DNA from: a virus
IMG/VR virus record: IMGVR_UViG_3300022707_001577
Location: 1 to 25,580 of that record
Direction: 5' to 3' (one strand)
Length of the DNA: 25,580 nt
Position numbers and translations under genes: made by a program. The notes beneath the pieces were generated by a model that worked only from the letters and a program-made list of their open reading frames with translations, did no database searches and was not told the DNA's origin. Shown here piece after piece: positions 7,862 to 25,580 of this stretch (positions are counted from its first letter, which is position 1; each line of letters starts with the position of its first letter).

Positions 7862-8101
7862 ATGAAACTATTCGATCCAGTCCAAAAAAAAGAGGTGGAG
7901 GTTGTAACAAAAACCTTTGAACTGAAAATGAAGCCCGGAACCGCAGGGACCGCAAATGATCCACACCAGCCCTTGCTTGCGGATGCACTCGAAAACAAGG
8001 CTTACAAATGGACCGTGAATGACAAAGACAACACGATCACGGTGTGGGCGGAAGCCAAAGAAATCACAAACATAGCAAAAACCCACAAAGTAGTAATTTA
8101 G
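7862..8101 (+). CDS. Small tail-tip-associated protein (unknown)
   Basis: A 79-residue protein starting two bases after the preceding stop. It is mixed polar with beta tendency: VEVVTKTFELKMKPGTAG, then YKWTVNDKDNTITVWAEAKE. Its stop (TAG 8099-8101) overlaps the GTG start of the giant hub gene, so the two are likely co-translated. No family is recognised; it may be a chaperone or a small subunit of the tail tip. Confidence 0.55.
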   Translation: MKLFDPVQKKEVEVVTKTFELKMKPGTAGTANDPHQPLLADALENKAYKWTVNDKDNTITVWAEAKEITNIAKTHKVVI

Positions 8102-11100
8102 TGGCTCGCCCATTTCATTTTTCCAGTGATCCTTTATCCCTATGGACCGTTGTGGATATTATTGGCGCGGGCAACTGGAGCCAGTCGGGATCACTCGAAA
8201 CAGCATTTAGAACATCCGGCCCGGCGGGGGGGAGTATCAGTGCTTTAGTCAGAAACACCGACACCGCAGATGAGCAAACGGTGGAAGCCCGAGTCAAGGC
8301 TAGTCCTTGGACCAATGACGAACAAGGATTTTCTGTTCTCGCGAATTTTATAGATTCGGATAATTTCTATTATGGGAACATTCAGAGATTCCAAGGTTTG
8401 GCGCGAATTGTAAAGGTCGTGGCTGGGGTTTTCACTGTAATGACTCAGACGTCGAGCCCCTATTCGTCCGGGACCTTTGTCCGCATCAAATTGACCACGG
8501 AAAACAACGGATCGAATAAAGATTTGGAATTTTTCAGGGATGGTGTTTCCTTGCTCACGGTTTCAACCTCTGACAAACACGGAACTGGACAGGCGGGATT
8601 GCTATATCACGGCGTGGCCTCCGGGAACATCAACGATTATGATTGGTGGGCCTTCAACATGAGTCAAAATATTTCGAGCGTTGTTCCTTCTAGTGGGGGA
8701 GTGTCGGGTGGGACGAATGTTGCTATCAACGGGACCGACATTGGGGACAGTACTCTAGCGGAATTTGGAGGTCTGCCCGCAACAGGAAACGTCGCGACGC
8801 CTAACACTAAACTTGATTGTATCACCCCGGCAGGCGCTCTGGGTTTCGTGGATGTAAAAATAAAGTTTGGAACGCTGGGATCCGAGGAATTTACCTTCAC
8901 TCTTGCATCCGCATACGAATATACAGCAGATCCATTATTGGATTTGGGTCGAGTCAACCAACAGTTTTTAGACGCACAAAAAGCCCCTGCCTCAGAGATG
9001 AAAAAAGAACTAAAGGCTTGGCTCAGGAATGTGGCGGCTAGCGCGGAAGGGTCCGTCGCGACCGGTGATGATCTAGACGCGGATCATCCGGCCTCTGGCG
9101 CGATCGATGGTGATGCCGCCCACCTGAATTTTGGGCCCGGATCCGGAGCCGAGAATGGAATCGGTAAGGGCGGTTGGAAATCTTCTGCGGCTTCGCTATT
9201 ACATTTTATAACCTCGGCTTCTGATTGGAATGGCGGTGTCCAGACAAATATAAAAACGATCAATGATGCAATTGAAACCGCTTTTGACACGAGCCGATAC
9301 GAACAGGACTTCGACGGGCTCGCGGATGGCGCTCTGGCAACCCAAGATGGCTGGGCCAATATTAGTGGTACGGGAACCATAGATGTCGGCGCAGCTTTTG
9401 CATTTGGCGGGGGCGGTAAGGGCTTGCAGCTAAAAACCGCTGGAGGTCAAACCCAAAGGGTTGTAAGAAGGTCCATAACTTTCGGTACAAAAGTAACGCT
9501 TTCTCACCGGCTACAGCTCAAAGATATAACCGGCGGTCCCAACTTTATTTTGGGGGCAACCGGAACCGGGCAAGTTATTTGGGGATTCGACGGAACCGAC
9601 AACACGGTCAAATTCTTTTCGGGAAGTTGGAAGATTACTACCGTCAGACACGTGACGCCTATAAATATTTTTGAGCGTTGGGTCATTCATTTGGATAGAA
9701 CGACAGCCGCATCTACTGTGTTCAGATTGTTTATTGATGGCGTTCAAATACATGAGATGGTTTTGGACACGACGGGCATGAACGAAATGGATATTAGATC
9801 AGGGGGTGTCACTTCTGAAACTTATTTCGATGATTTGAGAATTGGCGATAATCTCCAAGATACAGGCCAGCAAGAAAACGTCTTCGATTTGGGCGCGGAT
9901 CCGGTGAACAATGGCCGCGCAGAATTGAGTTTCAATGGAGAAGCCAAGAGAGTCGAAACGCTTTTGCCCGGAGCTTTTTACGGAGCTGCAAACGACGATG
10001 GCCCAACTACTCTAAGGGCAGCCACCACACAAGATAGAATAGCACAAACATTTGAAGTTGATTCCGACGGAGTCATGACGGGCGTTTTGATTTATATATT
10101 AAGAGCAGGAACACCTGCTCCTGCCTACAAGGCTGTTGTTTCTTTGGAAATAGCAAATACGACAGGCGGGACTCCGGAACCGGGAACCGTTGTCCATGGT
10201 AGAAGCGTTGAAATTGATACCGCGTCCATAGGCACTTCGTCTAGGTCCGTTCTGTTTGACTTCCCAACCCCGATTCATCTGAAAGCGGGCGTGAGATATG
10301 CCCTTATTCTCGACGGGAAATTTGATATTGATGCGGTGAATCATATAGATTGGAGAAGCGACAATTCTGCGCCGGGTTATACCAATGGACAAGCTTTCAT
10401 GTTTGATTCGGGAACCGCATCATGGAGTTCGTTAGCTAGAGATCAACTGTTCGCGGTCATTGGATGGCTTCAAGAGGAAACAGGCTTCGCCGGGAATGAT
10501 CCGATTGCACAAACTCTTAGAACGTCATCCACATTTGCAAATTTCGCCCAAGGGTTTAAGGTTCCGTTTGATACGAAGATCCAATATTTGCAACTTCCTG
10601 TCCGTCAAGTAGGAACACTCCCGGTGAACAGTACGATTTGGTGGGAACTTTGGTCGGATAATGGAGCATCTCCTGGCAAGCCATTGGCTCTAATTCAAGA
10701 GGGCTACCATCACGACGCTACGGTCATTTCTGGGAATCCTATTCCGCACGATCAATTTGTTCTCTCACTTCCGCGTGAAGTCGAAGTCTTTGCAGGCGTG
10801 CAATATCATTGGGTGCTTAGAGGGAACTGGGCTTTTGCTTCAAGCCCTGGAATAAACATCCAAGCCGATGTTACGGGTTCAACTTATCCAGATGGAACTA
10901 GAAATTTTGGTGATGATAGTTTTCCCATAGTCTGGTCGCCGCCTGCAAATGAACCGCCCATCGTTTCAGATTTCGACTTCAAGATCTTAGGTACGCACAG
11001 ACCTTCTTTTAGATTTGATGCGGCTTATTCCACGGACGATATTACATATGGAACCTTCCAAAAGATCACAGATAATCCTAAGAGACTTGGGTCGCTAGCC

Positions 11101-14028
11101 GACATTGCTTTCACTGGCGAGAAAAAACGCTTTTGGAAAATACGAGCCGAAGCGCAACGCAAAACCACGGACGGACTCGATGAGCCGTGGACCCCGATTC
11201 TATCCGACTACACCGTCAAAGCCATATTCAGGACTCGAAAAGAACTTAGGGTAGACATGGGACAAAGTAGAGTCATTCGCGGAATGGAAATCTACGCCCA
11301 TCCCACAGAACATGGCATGAGGCAAATTGTCATCGAGCATTCAACAGATGATATTTCCTTTACACCGATCACGGCTTTCGATGAATTGGCGTCCCGAAGA
11401 AAAGGAGGGGGCGCGTCGGATCCCGTAAATGTGGCTGGCACGATCACCACGGACGGGGATTATATAAGAGTCATTTTTGATGCTGACATCACGATGCGAT
11501 ATTTCAAGATTTTTGTTGAAGACAACGACGACGAATTTGCTCGGATTATGGAAGTTAGAGCCTTTCGGGTCGAGGATTGGACCGATAGATGGGTCAAGCA
11601 TTCGGAAGGTCAATCGGGTGACCCGCTTTTCCGGAAGGTTGAAGCCCGAAGTATGACAATCAGTCTAAGGAACGACGACGGGTTTCTTTCAGCCAAGAGG
11701 ACAGAGGGTGGATTCAATGACCAAGTTGGCCCCGGCGTCAGGCTCTTTCCAAAAATTGGATACACAGACGGCGCGACTCTTGTCCGCCGTGGCGTTTTCT
11801 ATGTAGAAAAATGGCCCGAAAAAATTAAAGATCCAACAATCCAAGTAAAGTCCCGCGACGGAACCAAGATCATGAATACTCAGGTTCGGGCTAAATTTAC
11901 GGCCAGAAGAAGGACTACTGAACTCATCGAATACTTGGGAAATCTTTCGGGCATTCCTTCTACAGATATGAACCTCGATCAATCGGGGGACTCAATAAAT
12001 TTCTATCTCGGGAAAGAGGTCAACGCTTATCAAGAGGCTCAAAAAATAGCTGAGTCAGTTGCCTTTAGCCGCCTATTTTTTGATGAAGAGGGATATTTGG
12101 TTTTTCAGATCGTTGGGAATGGTGTTCGTGACACAGAAATACAGGCGGATGGAAGTCTCGCCACGCCAAGGCGAACTATGGGTCCGCCCGCTTTCGTCGG
12201 TGACAAGATGTATATATTGATTTCAGAAGATGCGGGCGGAGGAGATGAGGATATAAATTTATTCGAGTGGGATATCGCGACTTCAGTTTGGACGAATCGC
12301 GGGATTGTCGCCACGGGAGAGGCCCGAATGAACGGGGCTTTGATTGCGTTCGATGAGAGAATATGGATTGCAACCTGGGAAGCGCCACTTCCTAATCTTG
12401 TCGGAAAACTTCAGGTCTACGACCCTTCTGATTTGAGCGTGACTGAAAAAATGAACCTGTTGCCTGAATTTTCCATCGCCGATTATGATTCCCCAGGACA
12501 CAATGACGGCCCCGGCGCAAACGACGGAATAGTGCGATCGATGGTAAGCCAACTGGTTCAGGGACACCGTTGGATCATAAGTTGTGAAAGTTCAAGGCTC
12601 CGATATAAAAACAAGCCATACGAAATCGACCTCTTTAAGCTGAGAGACAAGGCGCATACAGATATAACTGGTTGGGACAATTCGGAAAGAATCATTCATG
12701 CTTTGCGAACAGAGAGCGACAAGCTTGTTGGACTTACAAAGAGAGAAGTTGGCGGAGACATCAAGGCTATCGAATGGGATTATGATGCTAAGACCGTCAC
12801 AAACAAAGTCACTTTTCCTTCTATGGGAGGAAACCGCGGGCATGTGGTTGGTATGGATAACGTCGGCGATGGCACTTTATGGCTGGCGTACTCAACGAAT
12901 TTAGGTGTGGGAGATGTTGGGGCGCGGCTATCAACGCTTGACGTTTCAGGGGACACATGGATTTTCACTGAAGGAGATGCGGTTGCTGATGTGGCAACCC
13001 TCGCACCATTTGCCGAAGGTGATGGCGTCGTTTATGCCGATGGTCTTATTCTTGGGTATTGGGGTAAACCCATTGGATCCGATTCTCAATATAGATTTAT
13101 GGGAAGGGACTTGAAAGCTCCAAACGTTGAAAATACTGACATTGGCCCAATAGGTTCGGGCGGAACATCCCGCGTTGGTCAATTTAGAAGCCACACAGAT
13201 GTAAATGGTGTTGTTTGGATATACGGAATCATGGATGATTTTAGAATTTTTGAACTTAGGGTCAGAGGTGTTCTACCGGCGCAAGAAGTTTCCACAAAAA
13301 TTATATCTGAAGATTCGGAAGGGCTGCTAAGAGACATGAGCGCGGATCGAACAGACGAAGCGGGGGGTGAGGCGGCAATCATAAACGTGGCTTACATAAA
13401 AAGCCGACCCCTGATTGCAGAACCGGATCTAGAGCAAGTGTGGGAAGGTTCCGATTTTCCTTGGGCTGTAAACAAAGACACTCTCATTGAATTTGATGTA
13501 GAGCTAGAGGAAGAGTGCGACCCCTCGACCATAGCCTTCCAATCACCAACCCCTCAATTTGCCGATGGCGGGGCCGGTGTGGCGACTCTAAAGGATGTCA
13601 TCGATGGGGGCTCCACTATTCGGAGTACGAGTCGCGTCCGAATAAGTATCGACGTAACTGCTGGGGGAAGGCTCACAGGACTTGCTTTGGAAGGAAAACC
13701 ATTGAGGCGGCAAGGAACTTTGATCGCCGTAGCTCTGGGAAAACCGTCAAGCAAAAATCGTTTTGGCATTCGAGAGTTTTTCAGGCAGAACGACTATATT
13801 TATAATCCGATGAATCTCATGGGACTTGCAAAAAGTCTTGTCGATAGGTTTCAGACTCCCAAACAAAGGATCACCGGTCTTCGAGCTTTGGCTCTTTGGG
13901 ATCTTCAGTTATTCGACAGAACGACTCTTATTGCGGCTACGCTTGGGATCAATGGCGATTACTACATAACCGGCATCCAAGGATCGTTCGAAGATCCCGA
14001 CATGACCTTCGACGCGATAGAAGTATGA
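8101..14028 (+). CDS. Giant tail hub / host-recognition mosaic protein (1975 aa)
   Basis: The start is GTG 8101 in a TAGTG overlap; an in-frame ATG at 8044 lies inside the previous gene and is unlikely. Approximate domain order: residues 1-190, LamG/concanavalin-like sandwich; 191-279, IPT/TIG-like (ISSVVPSSGGVSGGTNVAIN); 287-308, helix; 400-584, second LamG-like unit; 627-790 and 800-965, two similar sandwich domains (shared 'IAQTF..', 'G..Y.L.L.G' features); 1046-1158, F5/8 type C-like; 1179-1342, hub-like part (SLRNDDGFLSAKR, VRRGVFYVEKWPEKI); 1355-1723, Kelch-like beta-propeller candidate (GDKMYIL, DERIWIATW, DGTLWLAYS); 1746-1975, hub C-terminal part ending FEDPDMTFDAIEV. It probably closes the tail tube and binds carbohydrate or protein receptors. 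Tail-protein identity is firm; the individual domain names are pattern-based. Confidence 0.8.
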   Translation: MARPFHFSSDPLSLWTVVDIIGAGNWSQSGSLETAFRTSGPAGGSISALVRNTDTADEQTVEARVKASPWTNDEQGFSVLANFIDSDNFYYGNIQRFQGLARIVKVVAGVFTVMTQTSSPYSSGTFVRIKLTTENNGSNKDLEFFRDGVSLLTVSTSDKHGTGQAGLLYHGVASGNINDYDWWAFNMSQNISSVVPSSGGVSGGTNVAINGTDIGDSTLAEFGGLPATGNVATPNTKLDCITPAGALGFVDVKIKFGTLGSEEFTFTLASAYEYTADPLLDLGRVNQQFLDAQKAPASEMKKELKAWLRNVAASAEGSVATGDDLDADHPASGAIDGDAAHLNFGPGSGAENGIGKGGWKSSAASLLHFITSASDWNGGVQTNIKTINDAIETAFDTSRYEQDFDGLADGALATQDGWANISGTGTIDVGAAFAFGGGGKGLQLKTAGGQTQRVVRRSITFGTKVTLSHRLQLKDITGGPNFILGATGTGQVIWGFDGTDNTVKFFSGSWKITTVRHVTPINIFERWVIHLDRTTAASTVFRLFIDGVQIHEMVLDTTGMNEMDIRSGGVTSETYFDDLRIGDNLQDTGQQENVFDLGADPVNNGRAELSFNGEAKRVETLLPGAFYGAANDDGPTTLRAATTQDRIAQTFEVDSDGVMTGVLIYILRAGTPAPAYKAVVSLEIANTTGGTPEPGTVVHGRSVEIDTASIGTSSRSVLFDFPTPIHLKAGVRYALILDGKFDIDAVNHIDWRSDNSAPGYTNGQAFMFDSGTASWSSLARDQLFAVIGWLQEETGFAGNDPIAQTLRTSSTFANFAQGFKVPFDTKIQYLQLPVRQVGTLPVNSTIWWELWSDNGASPGKPLALIQEGYHHDATVISGNPIPHDQFVLSLPREVEVFAGVQYHWVLRGNWAFASSPGINIQADVTGSTYPDGTRNFGDDSFPIVWSPPANEPPIVSDFDFKILGTHRPSFRFDAAYSTDDITYGTFQKITDNPKRLGSLADIAFTGEKKRFWKIRAEAQRKTTDGLDEPWTPILSDYTVKAIFRTRKELRVDMGQSRVIRGMEIYAHPTEHGMRQIVIEHSTDDISFTPITAFDELASRRKGGGASDPVNVAGTITTDGDYIRVIFDADITMRYFKIFVEDNDDEFARIMEVRAFRVEDWTDRWVKHSEGQSGDPLFRKVEARSMTISLRNDDGFLSAKRTEGGFNDQVGPGVRLFPKIGYTDGATLVRRGVFYVEKWPEKIKDPTIQVKSRDGTKIMNTQVRAKFTARRRTTELIEYLGNLSGIPSTDMNLDQSGDSINFYLGKEVNAYQEAQKIAESVAFSRLFFDEEGYLVFQIVGNGVRDTEIQADGSLATPRRTMGPPAFVGDKMYILISEDAGGGDEDINLFEWDIATSVWTNRGIVATGEARMNGALIAFDERIWIATWEAPLPNLVGKLQVYDPSDLSVTEKMNLLPEFSIADYDSPGHNDGPGANDGIVRSMVSQLVQGHRWIISCESSRLRYKNKPYEIDLFKLRDKAHTDITGWDNSERIIHALRTESDKLVGLTKREVGGDIKAIEWDYDAKTVTNKVTFPSMGGNRGHVVGMDNVGDGTLWLAYSTNLGVGDVGARLSTLDVSGDTWIFTEGDAVADVATLAPFAEGDGVVYADGLILGYWGKPIGSDSQYRFMGRDLKAPNVENTDIGPIGSGGTSRVGQFRSHTDVNGVVWIYGIMDDFRIFELRVRGVLPAQEVSTKIISEDSEGLLRDMSADRTDEAGGEAAIINVAYIKSRPLIAEPDLEQVWEGSDFPWAVNKDTLIEFDVELEEECDPSTIAFQSPTPQFADGGAGVATLKDVIDGGSTIRSTSRVRISIDVTAGGRLTGLALEGKPLRRQGTLIAVALGKPSSKNRFGIREFFRQNDYIYNPMNLMGLAKSLVDRFQTPKQRITGLRALALWDLQLFDRTTLIAATLGINGDYYITGIQGSFEDPDMTFDAIEV

Positions 14029-14270
14029 AAGCGAAAATTGATAGAGCCGTCATCACTTGGGAGGGGTTGCATATAGAATGGACTGTCTTTGATGACTCTG
14101 GTCGGCCTGTGTATTCTGCCAAAAGACTTATTGAAAGAAACGCCCAAGAGAACAACACCGCCCTAATTGCTCGAGGAAATGCTGCGGCTCTAACCGACTC
14201 AAACAGGGTAAAGGCCACGTATTCGCAAGGTGGGCAGGATGTGATTTTGGAAATGGAACCACTTGATTGA
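14025..14270 (+). CDS. Small hub-partner protein (unknown)
   Basis: An 81-residue protein beginning at ATG 14025 in an ATGA overlap with the hub gene. The same frame is open further upstream to 13896, but that stretch lies inside the hub gene and its translation is Arg-rich shadow sequence. The product is strand-rich at the start (IDRAVITWEGLHIEWTVFDD), then helical (AKRLIERNAQENNTALIARG), ending in VILEMEPLD. No family is recognised. Translational coupling to the hub suggests a tail-tip subunit or an assembly factor. Confidence 0.6.
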   Translation: MKAKIDRAVITWEGLHIEWTVFDDSGRPVYSAKRLIERNAQENNTALIARGNAAALTDSNRVKATYSQGGQDVILEMEPLD

Positions 14271-14312: not shown

Positions 14313-15155
14313 ATGAAAAAACTACTTGGATTGATCGCGTTTTCAATGGTGTTAGGACTTCTTTCGACGGCTAGAGCCCAAATTCCATACACAGATAAGG
14401 CAGAAGGCTTTGGCGGTTCTTTCTTCACAGCTGAAACAGCTACAACGCAGGGCAAGTGGTTTGATACTAAGAAATGGGGCGGTGCTGGAACGCTTCAAGT
14501 AACTGGTGCTGGAACCTATGTCATTCAAATTCGTGGGTCCAACGCAGAATTTATCCCTCTAGACACCGACGACCAAGTTCAGGTCGGAAAAGACATCACG
14601 GTTCCAGGTATTCATGGAATGAATTTCAATACTCGATGGGTAAAAGCGATCATAAGCACCTACACATCGGGAACGATCACGGCTGAATTCTGGATGGGGC
14701 AAAAGGGATCCTCGACCTACTTTTCTGTAAACGAAAAGGGCGAGATCTCTACAACTTCAAGTGGTGGAGCAGGCTTAGTCGATCAGGGAACTTCGGGGGT
14801 CGACGCAGATGCTTGGAACTTTGTGGCGAGAGATTCAGCTGGAGTTGAATTAGATCTTGCAAGAGGTCCAGCGCAGACAGCGACAGAACCTACAGTTATT
14901 GCCATCGGTGATACTCCGACCCTAATTCTTGCAGCTTCAGCAAACACTCATGGCGCGATTATCAAAAACATGGGAACTGCAATCGTGTTCATTGGAAAAA
15001 GTGGAGTAGCAGACACGACAGGAATTCCATTGCGTGGGGGTGTGTTGAACGACGACGCCAAGGGAGAAAGTGGACTAGCCGAACATGGTGATGACATATA
15101 TGGAATTGTCACTAGCGGCACTGTAAATATTCGTCTTCAAGTTCGATCAAACTAA
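14313..15155 (+). CDS. Exported virion-like protein with Sec signal peptide (first of three)
   Basis: A 280-residue protein with a clear Sec signal peptide: MKK, a hydrophobic core LLGLIAFSMVLGLL, and the cleavage motif ARA before Gln23. Residues 25-150 are a Gly/Thr-rich beta domain (TLQVTGAGTYVIQIRGS, TSGTITAEFWMGQKG). Residues about 185-280 match a small beta domain often seen in phage fibre or decoration proteins ('vI.NmGtaiVFIGksG...t.GipLrgG', then 'DDIYGIVTSGTVNIRLQV'). Signal peptides are unusual on virion proteins, so it may be assembled in the periplasm or displayed on the cell surface. The leader 14271-14312 has GGGAG 14 bases and AGGG 3 bases before ATG, both poorly spaced. Confidence 0.75.
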   Translation: MKKLLGLIAFSMVLGLLSTARAQIPYTDKAEGFGGSFFTAETATTQGKWFDTKKWGGAGTLQVTGAGTYVIQIRGSNAEFIPLDTDDQVQVGKDITVPGIHGMNFNTRWVKAIISTYTSGTITAEFWMGQKGSSTYFSVNEKGEISTTSSGGAGLVDQGTSGVDADAWNFVARDSAGVELDLARGPAQTATEPTVIAIGDTPTLILAASANTHGAIIKNMGTAIVFIGKSGVADTTGIPLRGGVLNDDAKGESGLAEHGDDIYGIVTSGTVNIRLQVRSN

Positions 15156-16504
15156 TGAATAGATTCAAAGTTTTACCTGTCCTATTTCTTTTGCTGTGCG
15201 TCCCGGCGCACGCTTTACAAATTCAATCACCAGTTATAAGGGACCACGCAGACTTGGATGGTCTGACAACGGGAGATGACCACACCCAATATCAGAAGGA
15301 ATCTGAAAAAGACGGAGCCAACGGATACGCAGGCCTTGACGGATCGGGTGATATTGCTGTGGGCGCGCTGCCTAATCATGCGTCGAATCATACTGATGGC
15401 ACAGACGATATCCAAGATGGAACGGCTGCTCAGAAAGGTTTGGTGACAGCAACACAAATCACAAAGCTAGATGGTATTGAACCCTCTGCCAAAGATGACC
15501 AGACCGACGCTGAAATAAAAACAGCCTATGAAGCCAATCCTAATACGAATGAATTTTCAGACGCAGAGCAAACCAAGCTAGGCGGCGCAGAGGAAACGTC
15601 TAACAAAAATATCGCGAATGGATATGCTGGCCTGGATGTGTCAAGCAAACTCGATGGCGCACAGCAGGTTTATGGAACTGGATCAAACACAGCAGCGGAA
15701 GGAAATGATTCGCGTTTATCAGATGCCAGAGTCCCGACTGCCCATGATTTAGCTGGAGCAGAGCACAACGCGGATACTCTTGCGGATTTGAATACAAAGG
15801 TTTCCGATGCCACATTGATTGACACAGGCGATTCCAGGTTGAGCGATGCGCGGACCCCGACTACCCACGATCTCGCAGGGGCAGAACATGCCGCAGATAC
15901 TTTAGCGGACCTAAATTCTAAAGTTTCTGATGCCACTCTGATTGATACGGGGGACACAAGGATTCCGATACAGGGTGAGAATGACGCCTTGGTGGGATCA
16001 GCCGGTACGCCTTCGACTAGCAACCCATATCTTACCGATGAAGACAACAGGATCGACATACATTGGGATCTAAAGACCGCAGGCGAGGGGTCGTTTGAAG
16101 TCTTTGCAGGTACGCCCGGCATAAAGTCACCAGACTGGGACAGCGGAGACCTCATGGGATATATTTTGGTCACTGGGTCCGCAGTTGATGACCAAGGTGG
16201 CGTGGTTTACGAGTTCGTAATTCCAGAGGGCGTCACGGACCTTACTGAGGTTAGTTGCACCGGCAAGCTAGGTGTCGCCTCTCAGGACGCCATCACCGTT
16301 CGCGTCAAGAGGGAAGACGGAACCCAAGTAGATACGGGTGGGCCTCATCAAATAACAGCCGCTGTGGAAACCCTTCTTGTGATCAACACTTTTAGCGGTG
16401 AAACCTTTGTTCCTGGGACAAGATTTATTATCGAAGTTGAGTATCAGGGAGATAATACGGAAACTGGATCCATCGGAAGTTGCCTGGTGGAAATGGCTAG
16501 ATAG
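15155..16504 (+). CDS. Tail-fibre-like exported protein with tandem repeats
   Basis: A 449-residue protein overlapping the previous stop (TAATG). The N-terminus is a signal peptide (MNRFKVLPVLFLLLCVPAHA, cleavage after Ala20). The body has phrases typical of trimeric phage fibres: HADLDGLTTGDDHTQY, GYAGLDGSGDI (and again GYAGLDVSSKL), TKLDGIEPSAKDDQTDAEI, EFSDAEQTKLGG, and two tandem copies of a 41-residue unit at residues 185-266 (DSRLSDAR.PT.HDLAGAEH). The C-terminal 150 residues form a beta sandwich, perhaps a receptor-binding head. Fibre assignment is confident; the export signal is visible and odd for a fibre. Confidence 0.8.
   Translation: MNRFKVLPVLFLLLCVPAHALQIQSPVIRDHADLDGLTTGDDHTQYQKESEKDGANGYAGLDGSGDIAVGALPNHASNHTDGTDDIQDGTAAQKGLVTATQITKLDGIEPSAKDDQTDAEIKTAYEANPNTNEFSDAEQTKLGGAEETSNKNIANGYAGLDVSSKLDGAQQVYGTGSNTAAEGNDSRLSDARVPTAHDLAGAEHNADTLADLNTKVSDATLIDTGDSRLSDARTPTTHDLAGAEHAADTLADLNSKVSDATLIDTGDTRIPIQGENDALVGSAGTPSTSNPYLTDEDNRIDIHWDLKTAGEGSFEVFAGTPGIKSPDWDSGDLMGYILVTGSAVDDQGGVVYEFVIPEGVTDLTEVSCTGKLGVASQDAITVRVKREDGTQVDTGGPHQITAAVETLLVINTFSGETFVPGTRFIIEVEYQGDNTETGSIGSCLVEMAR
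15707..15952 (+). repeat. Two tandem 41-codon repeats in the fibre gene
   Basis: Units at 15707-15829 and 15830-15952 encode 41 residues each, 37 of them identical. Only 14 of the 41 codons are identical, so 23 conserved residues are written with different codons. The start of a third unit (DTRIP) follows at 15953. The repeat probably extends the fibre shaft. Confidence 0.9.
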
Positions 16505-16511
16505 TAGGACC

Positions 16512-17315
16512 ATGAAAACCTGGATTTATATTCCTGCAATTATTGTTAGCCTCTTTTTGGCGGTCCCTGCTCATGCGACTGTTAGTGTTTTGGGCGCGGA
16601 TTCATTAGGTCAAGGCAACGTATCGACCATCACGCTCAACACCACGATGCCCGTTGGCGAAAACACTCTTATGATTGCAATTTTTCATCTTGAACTTGGA
16701 CAATCCGTCACAACTCCTAATCCCACGTGGAACACAACAGAGACTTTTACTCTGGCCAGTGTGATCGATGCGAGTCCAGAAGATAATACTGAAATTTGGT
16801 ATTTGGTCGGCCCTACCCAGGGGACGTTTGATTTTGTGGGAAATATAACAGACAGCAATAATCACATGGTCGGCTTGATTTTTCTTGAGGGCGTGGATGG
16901 CTCCGATCCAATTGGAGCTACCCCAGCAGGAGTATTCAGCGTTGGAACAACGGACAGCGTGACCATTACCACCACGGCGGCGAACAGCATGATTGTCGAT
17001 GGCGCATCCTGGGGGGATAATAACTCGGTCCTTACTGAGGGGGGGAGCCAAACCGAACAGTATGAAGTCGGCGGTACTGGTGGCGGTCCTTCCTTTTCAA
17101 AAGTTCAAGGCGCGGCAAGCACCAGGCTAGTTACTACCGCCCAGCAATATATCAATACCTATACAAGCACCATAAGCGTAAATTATTCCTATCTTGGAAT
17201 TGAAGTCAAAGAAATGGTAGACGCTGGCGGGGAGCATCAAGACCAAGTGACCGCAGGAGTCCACCAAGACGTAGTAACTGGGGGAGTCCATCAAGACGTA
17301 GTGAACGGACTCTAA
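16512..17315 (+). CDS. Exported jelly-roll-like virion protein with C-terminal HQD repeats
   Basis: A 267-residue protein starting at ATG 16512; the frame is open upstream to 16398, but that part lies inside the fibre gene. The signal peptide is MKTWIYIPAIIVSLFLAVPAHA (split here only by its features: basic start, hydrophobic core to Leu16, AHA at 20-22). The mature part is a beta domain with 'MPVGENTLMIAIFHLE', 'TEIWYLVGPTQGTFDFVG' and 'HMVGLIFLEGVDGSDPIG', a pattern seen in carbohydrate-binding-like jelly rolls of phage and secreted proteins. The C-terminus carries three 9-residue repeats, G-x-HQD-x-V-x-x. The cleavage motif VPAHA is identical to that of the preceding gene. Ribosome site: AGGA just before ATG. 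Confidence 0.7.
   Translation: MKTWIYIPAIIVSLFLAVPAHATVSVLGADSLGQGNVSTITLNTTMPVGENTLMIAIFHLELGQSVTTPNPTWNTTETFTLASVIDASPEDNTEIWYLVGPTQGTFDFVGNITDSNNHMVGLIFLEGVDGSDPIGATPAGVFSVGTTDSVTITTTAANSMIVDGASWGDNNSVLTEGGSQTEQYEVGGTGGGPSFSKVQGAASTRLVTTAQQYINTYTSTISVNYSYLGIEVKEMVDAGGEHQDQVTAGVHQDVVTGGVHQDVVNGL
17229..17309 (+). repeat. Three 27-base repeats encoding GxHQDxVxx
   Basis: Units 17229-17255 (GEHQDQVTA), 17256-17282 (GVHQDVVTG) and 17283-17309 (GVHQDVVNG) form the extreme C-terminus of the third exported protein. The His-Gln-Asp core is invariant. Periodic His and Asp in a trimeric beta structure could bind metal, as His residues do in the T4 gp37 needle, but that is speculation. Confidence 0.85.
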
Positions 17316-17629
17316 TGCCTGACGAAAAGCCCGATAAGTTTTTCAAGAGAGCTAGACAGAAAGTAGTTCCCCAAATTCCGATGGCTGAATTTTTCAAGAT
17401 CATGGTATGGCTTGCAGGTTTTGGGGTGCTTATGACTCAGGCTGGAAAAGGTTTGGATGCTATGCACATAAATATTGACACGCCTGTGGGTCAGATCTAC
17501 AAGAACAAAGATCATATCAAGTGCATCGAAACAAACATGGAAGATCTAAGAATTAGAGCCAACATGCTCTTGAAGTTTCACGGTCTAACTATCCCCGATT
17601 CCCCCGAACCTATGCACCAAGATGAATAG
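17315..17629 (+). CDS. Small membrane/coiled-coil protein at the start of the lysis block
   Basis: A 104-residue protein with a one-base overlap (TAATG). Residues 1-22 are basic and polar; a hydrophobic segment at about 27-42 (KIMVWLAGFGVLMTQAG) may be one transmembrane helix. After it comes a polar region with a helical stretch (IKCIETNMEDLRIRANMLL, about 68-88). Single-TM plus coiled-coil proteins next to endolysins are often holin-, antiholin- or spanin-like, but nothing specific is recognisable. It overlaps the endolysin start by eight bases. Confidence 0.5.
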   Translation: MPDEKPDKFFKRARQKVVPQIPMAEFFKIMVWLAGFGVLMTQAGKGLDAMHINIDTPVGQIYKNKDHIKCIETNMEDLRIRANMLLKFHGLTIPDSPEPMHQDE

Positions 17630-18320
17630 CAGCGACATATTCCAGCAGGATTTAGCTTGGGTTCTCATGCACGAAGGGGGAATTTCAGACCACCCCGACG
17701 ATCCTGGCAAGCTCACTGTCAAGGGCGTAGCCCAGGCGAAGCACCCCGACCAAATAGCGTTGTGGTCTAGAGTCATGGAGCTCATTTCTAGGGATCTAGG
17801 CGACCAGCTGATACTGGCCGACCCTGAAATCAACAAATATATAAGGGAAATCTATTGGGATCTCTACTACAAGCCTTTGAACTGCCACAAAATGCAGGCT
17901 CCTATTTTCAGACGCAAGGTTTTTGATACTGCGGTGAATGTCGGCCGTCGTAGGTGCGCTCGATGGGTCCAACGAACCCTCAATCTATGTGACAGAGGAT
18001 CCAAGTCAGATGGTCTCATCCTCGATGGTGGACTTGGACCTACAACGCTGAAGGTTTTGAACAAATATTCAGCCGAAGACGATTTCTTGACTAAGCAAGT
18101 CACAGGTTTTCAGATGGCCCACTACCAAAAGATTTCGGAAAGGACCAAGAGGTTCGAGGTCTTCATTCGTGGGTGGACTAACAGAGCCTTCGAGGGTGTT
18201 CTTGGAAGTATGAAGGCTAACGATCATGCGCTGGCTGACATCGTGACAGACGAAGACATGGAAGCCTCACTGATTACTGGCCACAAAGTCTTTGGACCCT
18301 TAGAACCTGCCTGGGGTTGA
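17622..18320 (+). CDS. Endolysin, GH108-type lysozyme with peptidoglycan-binding domain
   Basis: Degrades peptidoglycan at the end of infection. The 232-residue protein begins with the GH108 signature: helix DLAWVLMHEGG with catalytic Glu18, then SDHPDDPGKLTVKGV (the family usually has DPGG..T..GI). The tryptophan-rich helix IREIYWDLYYKPLNC (about 70-84) is also typical. From about residue 95 there is a PG_binding_3-type region (FDTAVNVGRRRCARWVQRTL, DGGLGPTTLKVLN, then the FIRGWTNRAFEG helix). A C-terminal extension of some 35 residues is acidic and beyond the usual family end. There is no signal peptide, so release needs a holin. It overlaps the gene before it by eight bases. Confidence 0.9.
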   Translation: MNSSDIFQQDLAWVLMHEGGISDHPDDPGKLTVKGVAQAKHPDQIALWSRVMELISRDLGDQLILADPEINKYIREIYWDLYYKPLNCHKMQAPIFRRKVFDTAVNVGRRRCARWVQRTLNLCDRGSKSDGLILDGGLGPTTLKVLNKYSAEDDFLTKQVTGFQMAHYQKISERTKRFEVFIRGWTNRAFEGVLGSMKANDHALADIVTDEDMEASLITGHKVFGPLEPAWG

Positions 18321-18554: not shown

Positions 18555-19019
18555 ATGGCAATAGAGGCAAAAGCGCAGACGGCCATGAACGGGCTGTCGA
18601 AAAAAATGGGTGTAGCAGGCATATTTCTTGGCTGGTTATTTTTCATATGCACCGCGCCTGATTTGCAGAGGGTTGTTCTTGGATCCATAGTCACTGTCCT
18701 ATTTATCATCGTTACTTTGTGGCGACAGACTGTGGACATGAAAGCCAATCCTAAATCTGTGGACTTGACCAAGACTTTGATGGGGCGAATGTCAGCGGCA
18801 ATGGCAATGGCTGGTGGTTTTCTTACAGGCCTTTTTGCTTCCAACATTTCTATGGAACTAAAGATGTGGGGTGGATTCTCTGTTGTTGTATCTTTCCTAA
18901 TCATGCAGGGAATTTATGACACAGTGAAGGCAAACCTAAACAGCCCAAAGCAAAATGAACGAAGAACAAATTCAGGAAGATTGCTCGGCGGTGCACCACC
19001 TCCACCTATAGAAGAATGA
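18555..19019 (+). CDS. Putative holin-like membrane protein (four TM segments)
   Basis: A 154-residue protein with a good ribosome site (AGGTGG, seven bases before ATG). Four hydrophobic stretches are visible at about 19-35 (VAGIFLGWLFFICTAP), 40-57 (VLGSIVTVLFIIVTLW), 79-97 (SAAMAMAGGFLTGLFA) and 104-120 (GGFSVVVSFLIMQGI). The C-terminus is polar and Pro-rich. It lies just downstream of the endolysin and overlaps the spanin-like gene by four bases (ATGA). A holin that permeabilises the inner membrane is the natural reading, inferred from topology and place, not from a recognised holin family. Confidence 0.6.
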   Translation: MAIEAKAQTAMNGLSKKMGVAGIFLGWLFFICTAPDLQRVVLGSIVTVLFIIVTLWRQTVDMKANPKSVDLTKTLMGRMSAAMAMAGGFLTGLFASNISMELKMWGGFSVVVSFLIMQGIYDTVKANLNSPKQNERRTNSGRLLGGAPPPPIEE

Positions 19020-19552
19020 AGATCCTGTCTTTCCTTAGTAAAAAGGTAATTCTGTGGGTGGCTGGCATTGGGCTGGCCTCTGCGCTTGCTTTCTCTGGGG
19101 CCCAGTGCCGTCGCATTGAAAAGCTGGAAGTCGAAAACTTGGAACTGCGATCCAAAAATTCAAAGCTTGAATTTCAGGTGGAAACAAAACAGGCCGAGAT
19201 TGAAACGCATGAACTGATACGGCAAGGACCAGAGGCCATTGCCTCCGCTACCGACAAGATCAAATTGAATATCAAGCCCAAGAATGGCGCGACTCCAATT
19301 CCTTCTAAGGTGATAGAGGATGACGGCGTGACTGTCATCACAGTGGATCCAGAACGACAGGCCGAGATCGTAAAGAAGGCCGAGCTAACCGAGTCAAAAA
19401 TACTTAGGATCGGCGAGCTTGATGAGGAAATTATTGAATACGATAGGCTGTTGAAAAAAGCTAGACGGACCCGAATGAGAAACACAGTCATTGGCGGCCT
19501 CATTGGAGTCGGAGTTACAATCGTAATCGTGAAAATTATTAGTAGGAAATAG
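19016..19552 (+). CDS. Spanin-like protein with two terminal membrane segments
   Basis: A 178-residue protein. Residues 10-28 are a hydrophobic segment (KVILWVAGIGLASALAFSG) ending at Cys31. Next comes a coiled coil (IEKLEVENLELRSKNSKLEF, about 34-60), a polar middle, another helix (120-150), and a C-terminal hydrophobic segment at about 157-174 (TVIGGLIGVGVTIVIVKII). The i-spanin Rz has only the N-terminal TM; the u-spanin class has an N-terminal lipoprotein Cys and a C-terminal TM. Here the sequence before Cys31 is GAQ, a poor lipobox, so both readings remain possible. Last gene of the block, before a strong terminator. Confidence 0.5.
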   Translation: MKILSFLSKKVILWVAGIGLASALAFSGAQCRRIEKLEVENLELRSKNSKLEFQVETKQAEIETHELIRQGPEAIASATDKIKLNIKPKNGATPIPSKVIEDDGVTVITVDPERQAEIVKKAELTESKILRIGELDEEIIEYDRLLKKARRTRMRNTVIGGLIGVGVTIVIVKIISRK

Positions 19553-23532: not shown

Positions 23533-23844
23533 ATGGAGTGCGTGAGCTGTGGGTCCACCTCTAATCTGGAACTTTGGAATGAGTGGGAATATCTCTGCCC
23601 GAAGTGCTGGACGAAAATCGAAAAACGTAGAGGGGGCCTGCAGCCGTCATGCGCCTGCCGGACATTCAATGTCCCTTGCCACGACTTTATTTTATTGCGA
23701 GGTTCTACAGTTTGCAGAACCGACGCCCACGCGCCAAGATGCCACAAACAATATGCCAATGGCGAATTCAAGCCAGCGGAAGCAAAAAAACAGTGGGAAA
23801 GAACTAGAAGGAATTACAGAATCAGAGGCAATCCCGATGATTAG
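23533..23844 (+). CDS. Zinc-finger protein, partly duplicated by the inverted repeat
   Basis: A 103-residue protein with MECVSCGSTSNLELW, then YLCPKCW (a CxxC/CxxC ribbon, about residues 3-28). A second Cys/His-rich part follows (SCACRTFNVPCHDF, then VCRTDAHAPRCHKQY), so two zinc sites are possible. The tail is basic and helical (AEAKKQWERTRRNY). Bases 23709-23853, which cover the last 44 codons, recur in inverted orientation at the window end. Its stop overlaps the ATG of the next (frameshifted) gene by eight bases. The function is unknown; nucleic-acid binding is plausible. Confidence 0.65.
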   Translation: MECVSCGSTSNLELWNEWEYLCPKCWTKIEKRRGGLQPSCACRTFNVPCHDFILLRGSTVCRTDAHAPRCHKQYANGEFKPAEAKKQWERTRRNYRIRGNPDD

Positions 23845-23853
23845 ACTTTTCAA
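23709..23853 (+). repeat. Left arm of a perfect 145-bp inverted repeat
   Basis: Identical over 145 bases to the reverse complement of 25436-25580. It spans the 3' end of the zinc-finger gene and the first 17 bases of the next gene. Identity stops at 23854 (G here, A in the other copy). The other end is set by the window edge, so the repeat may be longer. Confidence 0.97.
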
Positions 23854-25177: not shown

Positions 25178-25580
25178 GTGTCAAAACCCAATTACCAAAT
25201 GCATCCAGTAGTCCAGAAAAAGCTGTTAGGACGGCTTTTAGAATACGCAGTTTTGAAAGCTATATTCGCCCATCAGAATTCTTGCAAGTCTCTGGTGAAG
25301 CTGCCCAAACATCCTTCGACCTGGGGCTGGGTGGTTCGAGCTGAGATTGCCCATCGCATGGGATTCAAAGAATGCAACAAAACTCTATCGAGAAAAATCA
25401 GAAAAGCCTTTTTGTGGCTCGAGGAAAAAGGATATTTGAAAAGTCTAATCATCGGGATTGCCTCTGATTCTGTAATTCCTTCTAGTTCTTTCCCACTGTT
25501 TTTTTGCTTCCGCTGGCTTGAATTCGCCATTGGCATATTGTTTGTGGCATCTTGGCGCGTGGGCGTCGGTTCTGCAAACT
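25178..25580 (+). CDS. Winged-helix DNA-binding protein, truncated by inverted repeat (partial)
   Basis: Open to the window end, so it lacks a stop codon. The start is GTG 25178, with GGGAGAG eight bases upstream; ATG 25199 (shorter) and ATG 25043 (longer, across the hairpin) are possible. Residues 11-35 are helical (VVQKKLLGRLLEYAVLKAIF), then PSTWGWVVRAEIAHRMGF and SRKIRKAFLWLEEKGYL (about 47-87) form a winged helix-turn-helix: helix, recognition helix, wing. Only 25178-25435 is unique. From 25436 the bases belong to the inverted repeat, so later residues are probably not the true C-terminus. A replication initiator or regulator is possible but not shown. Confidence 0.55.
   Translation, partial: MSKPNYQMHPVVQKKLLGRLLEYAVLKAIFAHQNSCKSLVKLPKHPSTWGWVVRAEIAHRMGFKECNKTLSRKIRKAFLWLEEKGYLKSLIIGIASDSVIPSSSFPLFFCFRWLEFAIGILFVASWRVGVGSAN
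25436..25580 (-). repeat. Right arm of the 145-bp inverted repeat
   Basis: Exact reverse complement of 23709-23853, with 1582 bases of unique sequence between the arms. The junction at 25435/25436 falls inside the winged-helix gene at a codon boundary. The arm's inner end (25436-25445) is the complement of the 10-bp unit duplicated at 23844. Confidence 0.97.
25445..25580 (-). pseudogene. Inverted partial copy of the zinc-finger gene 3' end
   Basis: On the - strand the last 44 codons and stop of the zinc-finger gene at 23533-23844 are repeated without any change. The window ends before its 5' part. Perfect identity means the duplication is very recent or an artefact of amplification or assembly. 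Confidence 0.7.

Follow-up and report, generated by a model that had tools for sequence, protein, structure and literature searches.

Why would a tailed phage equip three consecutive fiber-like genes with signal peptides, when tailed-phage assembly is usually taught to be wholly cytoplasmic? The question is raised by IMG/VR virus record IMGVR_UViG_3300022707_001577, which was analyzed over its full 25,580 nucleotides (nt; the window) and carries an HK97-type capsid gene, tail genes, a hub-like protein, the three genes in question (genes 1–3, the trio, encoding proteins 1–3), and lysis genes. An initial annotation, made from the letters alone, had drawn attention to the trio. We consider it probable that the trio is a late cassette of attachment proteins that would leave the cytoplasm through Sec, lose their leaders, fold in the periplasm, and be added to virions at lysis.

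To call signal peptides, we utilized an in-house rule that requires a net positive n-region, an uncharged hydrophobic core of 9–13 residues, and an A-x-A-like site soon after. The rule accepted 27/27 known E. coli signal peptides. As background, we used open reading frames (ORFs) of at least 100 amino acids (aa) in other phage loci, with recognized leader cassettes and isolate genomes set aside. The initial annotation had placed a basic N-terminus, a hydrophobic core, and an A-x-A site at the starts 14313, 15155, and 16512, and both the ORFs and the scores agree. Its cleavage motifs (ARA, AHA, and AHA, with VPAHA common to genes 2 and 3) are likewise seen in the sequences. A score of at least 4.65, the trio minimum, was reached by 1/1280 background ORFs and by 0/786 internal windows of the trio proteins. 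In the rest of the window, the N-terminal transmembrane (TM) segment of the spanin-like protein alone passes, at a lower cut-off. By this rule the trio N-termini are textbook Sec/signal peptidase I leaders, and the occurrence of three leader-bearing genes in a row is, judged from sequence, not due to chance. No further TM segment was found in the mature proteins, in which the mean hydropathy over 19 residues peaks at 1.18, and inspection of the trio sequences revealed neither a lipobox nor an outer-membrane anchor nor a C-terminal sorting motif.

The trio forms an operon of coupled genes that lies between the tail hub and the GH108 endolysin, a consecutive placement that the initial annotation had described correctly. 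One-base TAATG overlaps join gene 1 to gene 2 and gene 3 to the next gene, and genes 2 and 3 are separated by a 7-nt gap; joint expression of the trio and the lysis genes is therefore probable. The ORF list gives an in-frame GTG at 16398 as an alternative start of gene 3. We take ATG 16512 as the better start because AGGA lies just upstream and because the GTG would impose a 107-nt overlap with gene 2.

The fiber-like character of the mature parts is established by homology for protein 2 and presumed for proteins 1 and 3. The shaft of protein 2 matches tail fibers of many isolates (tblastn), PHROG tail families, and 73 viral loci, and by this homology we assign protein 2 as a phage tail fiber. 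The shaft is internally duplicated, as the unit SRLSDAR-PT-HDLAGAEH-ADTLADLN-KVSDATLIDTGD occurs twice. Cys368 and Cys443, in the C-terminal domain, are the sole mature cysteines in the trio and could pair in an oxidizing compartment. A PDB sequence search returned no convincing match for proteins 1–3, and proteins 1 and 3 also had none in Pfam, PHROGs, NCBIfam, phage records, or viral contigs. Protein 1 is weakly similar at its end to a small protein adjoining a fiber gene in contig L017 (E 0.006). Single-sequence AlphaFold models of mature proteins 1 and 3 were worthless, with a pLDDT (predicted local distance difference test) of about 31. Of the initial description of the mature parts as fiber- or decoration-like, the fiber assignment stands for protein 2, and the terms "decoration", "beta domain", and "jelly roll" are unproven. 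The HQD repeats that end protein 3 possibly bind metal; the other ORFs of the window, and those of the first 75 loci, contain no H-x-D triplet like theirs.

Support for the presence of such proteins in virions comes from annotated Cellulophaga isolates only, with virion status taken from GenBank tandem mass spectrometry (MS/MS) notes for phages phi18:3 and phi10:1. In phi18:3, the consecutive genes gp85, gp86, and gp87 each encode a leader followed by Q (gp85 with a low score, 3.18), and the notes list all three products as virion, structural, or tail proteins on the basis of experimental MS/MS. Downstream of these genes is a GH108 endolysin that belongs to the same PHROG family as the endolysin of the window. 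Phage phi10:1 has four consecutive leader genes, gp91–94 (gp92 with a low score, 3.26), all structural by MS/MS, while no leader was found on its portal, minor and major capsid, and connector proteins or on gp83, gp87, gp88, and gp90. The Cellulophaga cassettes resemble the window in having three to five consecutive leader genes, fiber- or depolymerase-like in content, placed between the tail genes and the lysis genes. They differ in that most of their leaders are followed by Q, the Bacteroidota pattern, and in being annotated as virion proteins. The trio would thus work like the Cellulophaga cassettes, and by sequence it is not a member of them.

The arrangement is kept in relatives in Pachyviridae, Assiduviridae, and Duneviridae; phi46:3, phi19:3, Nekkels_1, and Ingeline_1 are relatives with such cassettes. 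Leader modules are common to these three families (L099, L102–L106), whose members are podovirus-like and siphovirus-like; the cassette therefore moves between phages with different tails. The bodies of phi46:3 gp81 and phi10:1 gp93 are 93% identical and their leaders differ, whereas phi18:3 gp86 and phi10:1 gp93 share 83% over residues 1–118 and have different bodies. Enzyme bodies are swapped between two distinct leader-plus-N-terminal modules, one of which is kept, and body swapping with the leader retained argues for selection on the leader. In phi10:1, the pectate lyase gp95 (L103:10289–11779) also has a leader-like start, MIKNLLILLITFNCFSQ, and no MS/MS note; this enzyme may be exported without being part of the virion.

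As a further comparison, we examined fibers that share the shaft motifs of protein 2, which include ordinary fibers of the DHxxLxGLxxDDHTQY type with similar shaft repeats. By the in-house rule, a leader was present in 4/170 such ORFs (some contigs counted twice or more), distributed by sample as 0/73, 1/19 (L090), and 3/78 with a visible 5′ end (L165, L168, and L185). A leader on a fiber is unusual and a trait of some phages only. In the four cases, the layout repeats that of the window where the contig lets it show. The L168 contig runs from prohead protease/capsid through tape measure and an F5/8-type protein to five leader genes, an NlpC/P60 lysin, and a small membrane protein; its leader-bearing fiber is the first of the five consecutive signal-peptide genes. 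In L090 (1140–6676), a leader-bearing fiber of 1415 aa with a GDSL-like domain adjoins a leader-bearing polysaccharide lyase (PF14099), the leader of which is plain by eye and scores low (2.67); the pair precedes membrane proteins and a PG_binding/CHAP lysin. By its leaders, the L090 phage looks Bacteroidota-specific. The leader-bearing fiber of L185 lies beyond a lambda-J-like hub, that of L165 shares its contig with terminase and portal genes, and both cassettes are at the contig end. A leader on a fiber in L079 was discounted because the rule flagged it at an internal start alone, with a low score, and Manatee Spring phage proteins annotated "membrane-anchored cell surface protein" had no leader on inspection. 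The five-gene leader run (L168:4315–11265, L189:2819–4891) had no Pfam or PHROG match, and its first four mature parts contain 3, 3, 3, and 9 Cys. The search of other phages for the cassette, proposed initially, recovered the layout (Cellulophaga, L168) and no sequence kinship to the trio.

Under the explanation we favor, each trio protein would be made as a preprotein and routed through Sec, and signal peptidase I would cut off the leader. The fiber-like bodies would then fold and oligomerize in the periplasm. Once the downstream holin, endolysin, and spanin open the cell, the mature proteins would encounter particles freed from the cytoplasm, and would attach to them as receptor-binding or surface-degrading fibers. 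We favor export followed by joining because it explains the leaders, the fiber and depolymerase content, the detection in isolate virions, and the position adjoining the lysis genes. Export, cleavage, and the time of joining are our inference in all cases, the window and the isolates alike; for the window phage, so are periplasmic folding and presence in the virion. On a broader scale, we see an even chance that several unrelated tailed-phage lineages mature receptor-binding or depolymerase fibers outside the cytoplasm, by Sec export, trimming, periplasmic folding, and loading at or after lysis, from an exchangeable cassette beside the lysis genes.

Several results weigh against this explanation. 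Two of the three trio proteins are orphans without a usable model. The trio has no similarity to the Cellulophaga and L168 cassettes (blastp, E 1e-4), leaving layout as the only link, and 166/170 of the sampled fibers with the same shaft have no signal peptide. The MS/MS claim rests on GenBank notes, and carry-over of secreted proteins into particle preparations could mimic such a result. Furthermore, no leader was found on the virion proteins of phi18:1 or on the fiber-region proteins of phi38:1, Croceibacter P2559S, Flavobacterium 11b, and Maribacter Panino.

The initial annotation had offered two alternatives, fibers added outside the cytoplasm and a periplasmic or surface-displayed complex, and the former is favored by the Cellulophaga MS/MS notes. 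The latter is the main rival, unlikely but still to be reckoned with: the exported proteins would never join the virion and would act in receptor masking, superinfection exclusion, prevention of sticking to debris, or coat modification. T5 Llp is an example of a phage-encoded exported protein with such roles. The strength of the trio leaders, as judged by sequence, suits this rival, as do the pairing of a leader-bearing fiber with a leader-bearing polysaccharide lyase in L090 and the secreted tail-fiber-like trimers of Bdellovibrio, which act at the bacterial surface (PMC10769870). However, 7/7 such proteins in phi18:3 and phi10:1 are noted as virion proteins, the trio lies within a late structural-to-lysis operon, and its sequences show no lipobox, outer-membrane anchor, or sorting motif.

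Hydrophobic segments occur in certain phage tail proteins, and the trio N-termini could in principle be uncleaved membrane or tail anchors on ordinary fibers built in the cytoplasm. Cleavage is in every case predicted from sequence, which leaves room for this idea, but we hold it to be improbable: in all three proteins the core is as long as that of a signal peptide and is directly followed by an A-x-A site, ordinary fibers with the same shaft have no hydrophobic segment, and the Cellulophaga leaders stop before Q, fitting the Q rule of Bacteroidota signal peptidase I (PMC10367356). Less probable by far are chance hydrophobic N-termini or wrong starts. The upstream GTG of gene 3 and the use of an in-house rule speak for such an error, but the rarity of trio-level scores in the background, the adjacency of the three genes, and the recurrence in other phages argue strongly against it.

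Among virion proteins, fd pIII and pVIII, coat proteins of a filamentous phage, cross the inner membrane via a cleaved signal peptide before assembly. The difference is that an inovirus assembles at the membrane, whereas a tailed phage builds heads and tails in the cytoplasm. Outer-membrane lipoprotein exclusion factors of the Llp type differ from the trio in having a lipobox Cys after the leader. The mosaic adhesive trimer (MAT) fibers of Bdellovibrio bacteriovorus are phage-tail-fiber-like, equipped with a signal peptide, and exported (PMC10769870), as is proposed for the trio. They differ in being predation proteins encoded by a bacterium rather than a phage. They have a conserved post-leader domain of ~130 aa, and the likeness, drawn by description only, is an analogy. 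Porphyromonas gingivalis phages carry Q-rule signal-peptide genes of unknown function, the products of which have been reported as possible host-surface modifiers rather than fibers or virion parts (PMC10367356).

No description of leader-bearing tail fibers in tailed phages was found in the open-access literature, an absence that is not proof of novelty. The initial statement that no such layout had been described holds for open-access papers, but the layout itself is recurrent and has gone unremarked in annotated genomes. The lack of a signal peptide has even been used to support the phage origin of a protein (PMC6199706), and signal peptides are unmentioned in the main text of a paper on North Sea flavophages (PMC8776804). 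If the proposed route is correct, attachment gear could exploit periplasmic folding and disulfides, intracellular particles would be non-adsorbing until lysis, and released fibers could act on neighbors. Genes dismissed as host-like or as morons would then contribute to the virion. The isolates phi10:1 and phi18:3 make the fiber-export idea directly testable.

Table 1. Features of the trio and its neighbors, with positions in the window
Feature	Position	Strand	Description
Gene 1	14313..15155	+	280 aa; Sec signal peptide (predicted); mature part is an orphan of 258 aa and lacks Cys
Gene 1 signal peptide	14313..14378	+	MKKLLGLIAFSMVLGLLSTARA; predicted cleavage between STARA and QIPYT; score 4.65
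Gene 2	15155..16504	+	449 aa; tail-fiber-like, with signal peptide (predicted)
Gene 2 signal peptide	15155..15214	+	MNRFKVLPVLFLLLCVPAHA; predicted cleavage between VPAHA and LQIQS; score 5.21
Gene 2 fiber shaft	15236..16009	+	DHADLDGLTTGDDHTQY, NHASNHTDGTDDIQDGT, duplicated SRLSDAR-PT-HDLAGAEH repeats
Gene 2 C-terminal domain	16010..16501	+	No homologue among the loci; mature Cys 368 and 443
Gene 3	16512..17315	+	267 aa; Sec signal peptide (predicted); mature part is an orphan of 245 aa and lacks Cys
Gene 3 signal peptide	16512..16577	+	MKTWIYIPAIIVSLFLAVPAHA; predicted cleavage between VPAHA and TVSVL; score 5.20
Gene 3 C-terminal HQD repeats	17232..17312	+	EHQDQVTAGVHQDVVTGGVHQDVVNGL; HQDQVTAGV, HQDVVTGGV, HQDVVNGL
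Large tail hub/tip-like protein, upstream of trio	8044..14028	+	1994 aa; TIG domain; no signal peptide
Small protein	14025..14270	+	81 aa; overlaps hub gene; no signal peptide
Single-TM protein, first gene on lysis side	17315..17629	+	104 aa; 1-nt overlap with gene 3
Endolysin	17622..18320	+	GH108 and PG_binding_3; phrog_315
Holin-like membrane protein	18555..19019	+	Putative, from hydrophobic segments
Spanin-like protein	19016..19552	+	Hydrophobic segment at each end, long charged middle; weak Rz-like match, E 0.079

By sequence, the window phage is almost without close kin. Its capsid matches isolate phages at only about 24–28% identity, and no confirmed relatives of the hub, endolysin, or capsid C-terminus were found among the viral contigs searched. 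A host search in genome contigs returned only two distant fiber matches, one in a Nitrospirae metagenome-assembled genome (MAG) and one in a Dehalococcoidia MAG, and protein 3 was not found in 77 genomes of the phylum of the Nitrospirae MAG. A Bacteroidota host is unlikely, given that two of the three trio leaders have no Q after the cleavage site. A perfect 145-nt inverted repeat has arms at 23709–23853 and 25436–25580, the second being the very end of the contig; it is most likely an assembly-end artifact, and ORFs in the last 145 bases are not to be trusted. The spanin-like protein suggests a diderm host. It has no clear lipobox (AFSGAQC) and could be an unusual spanin.

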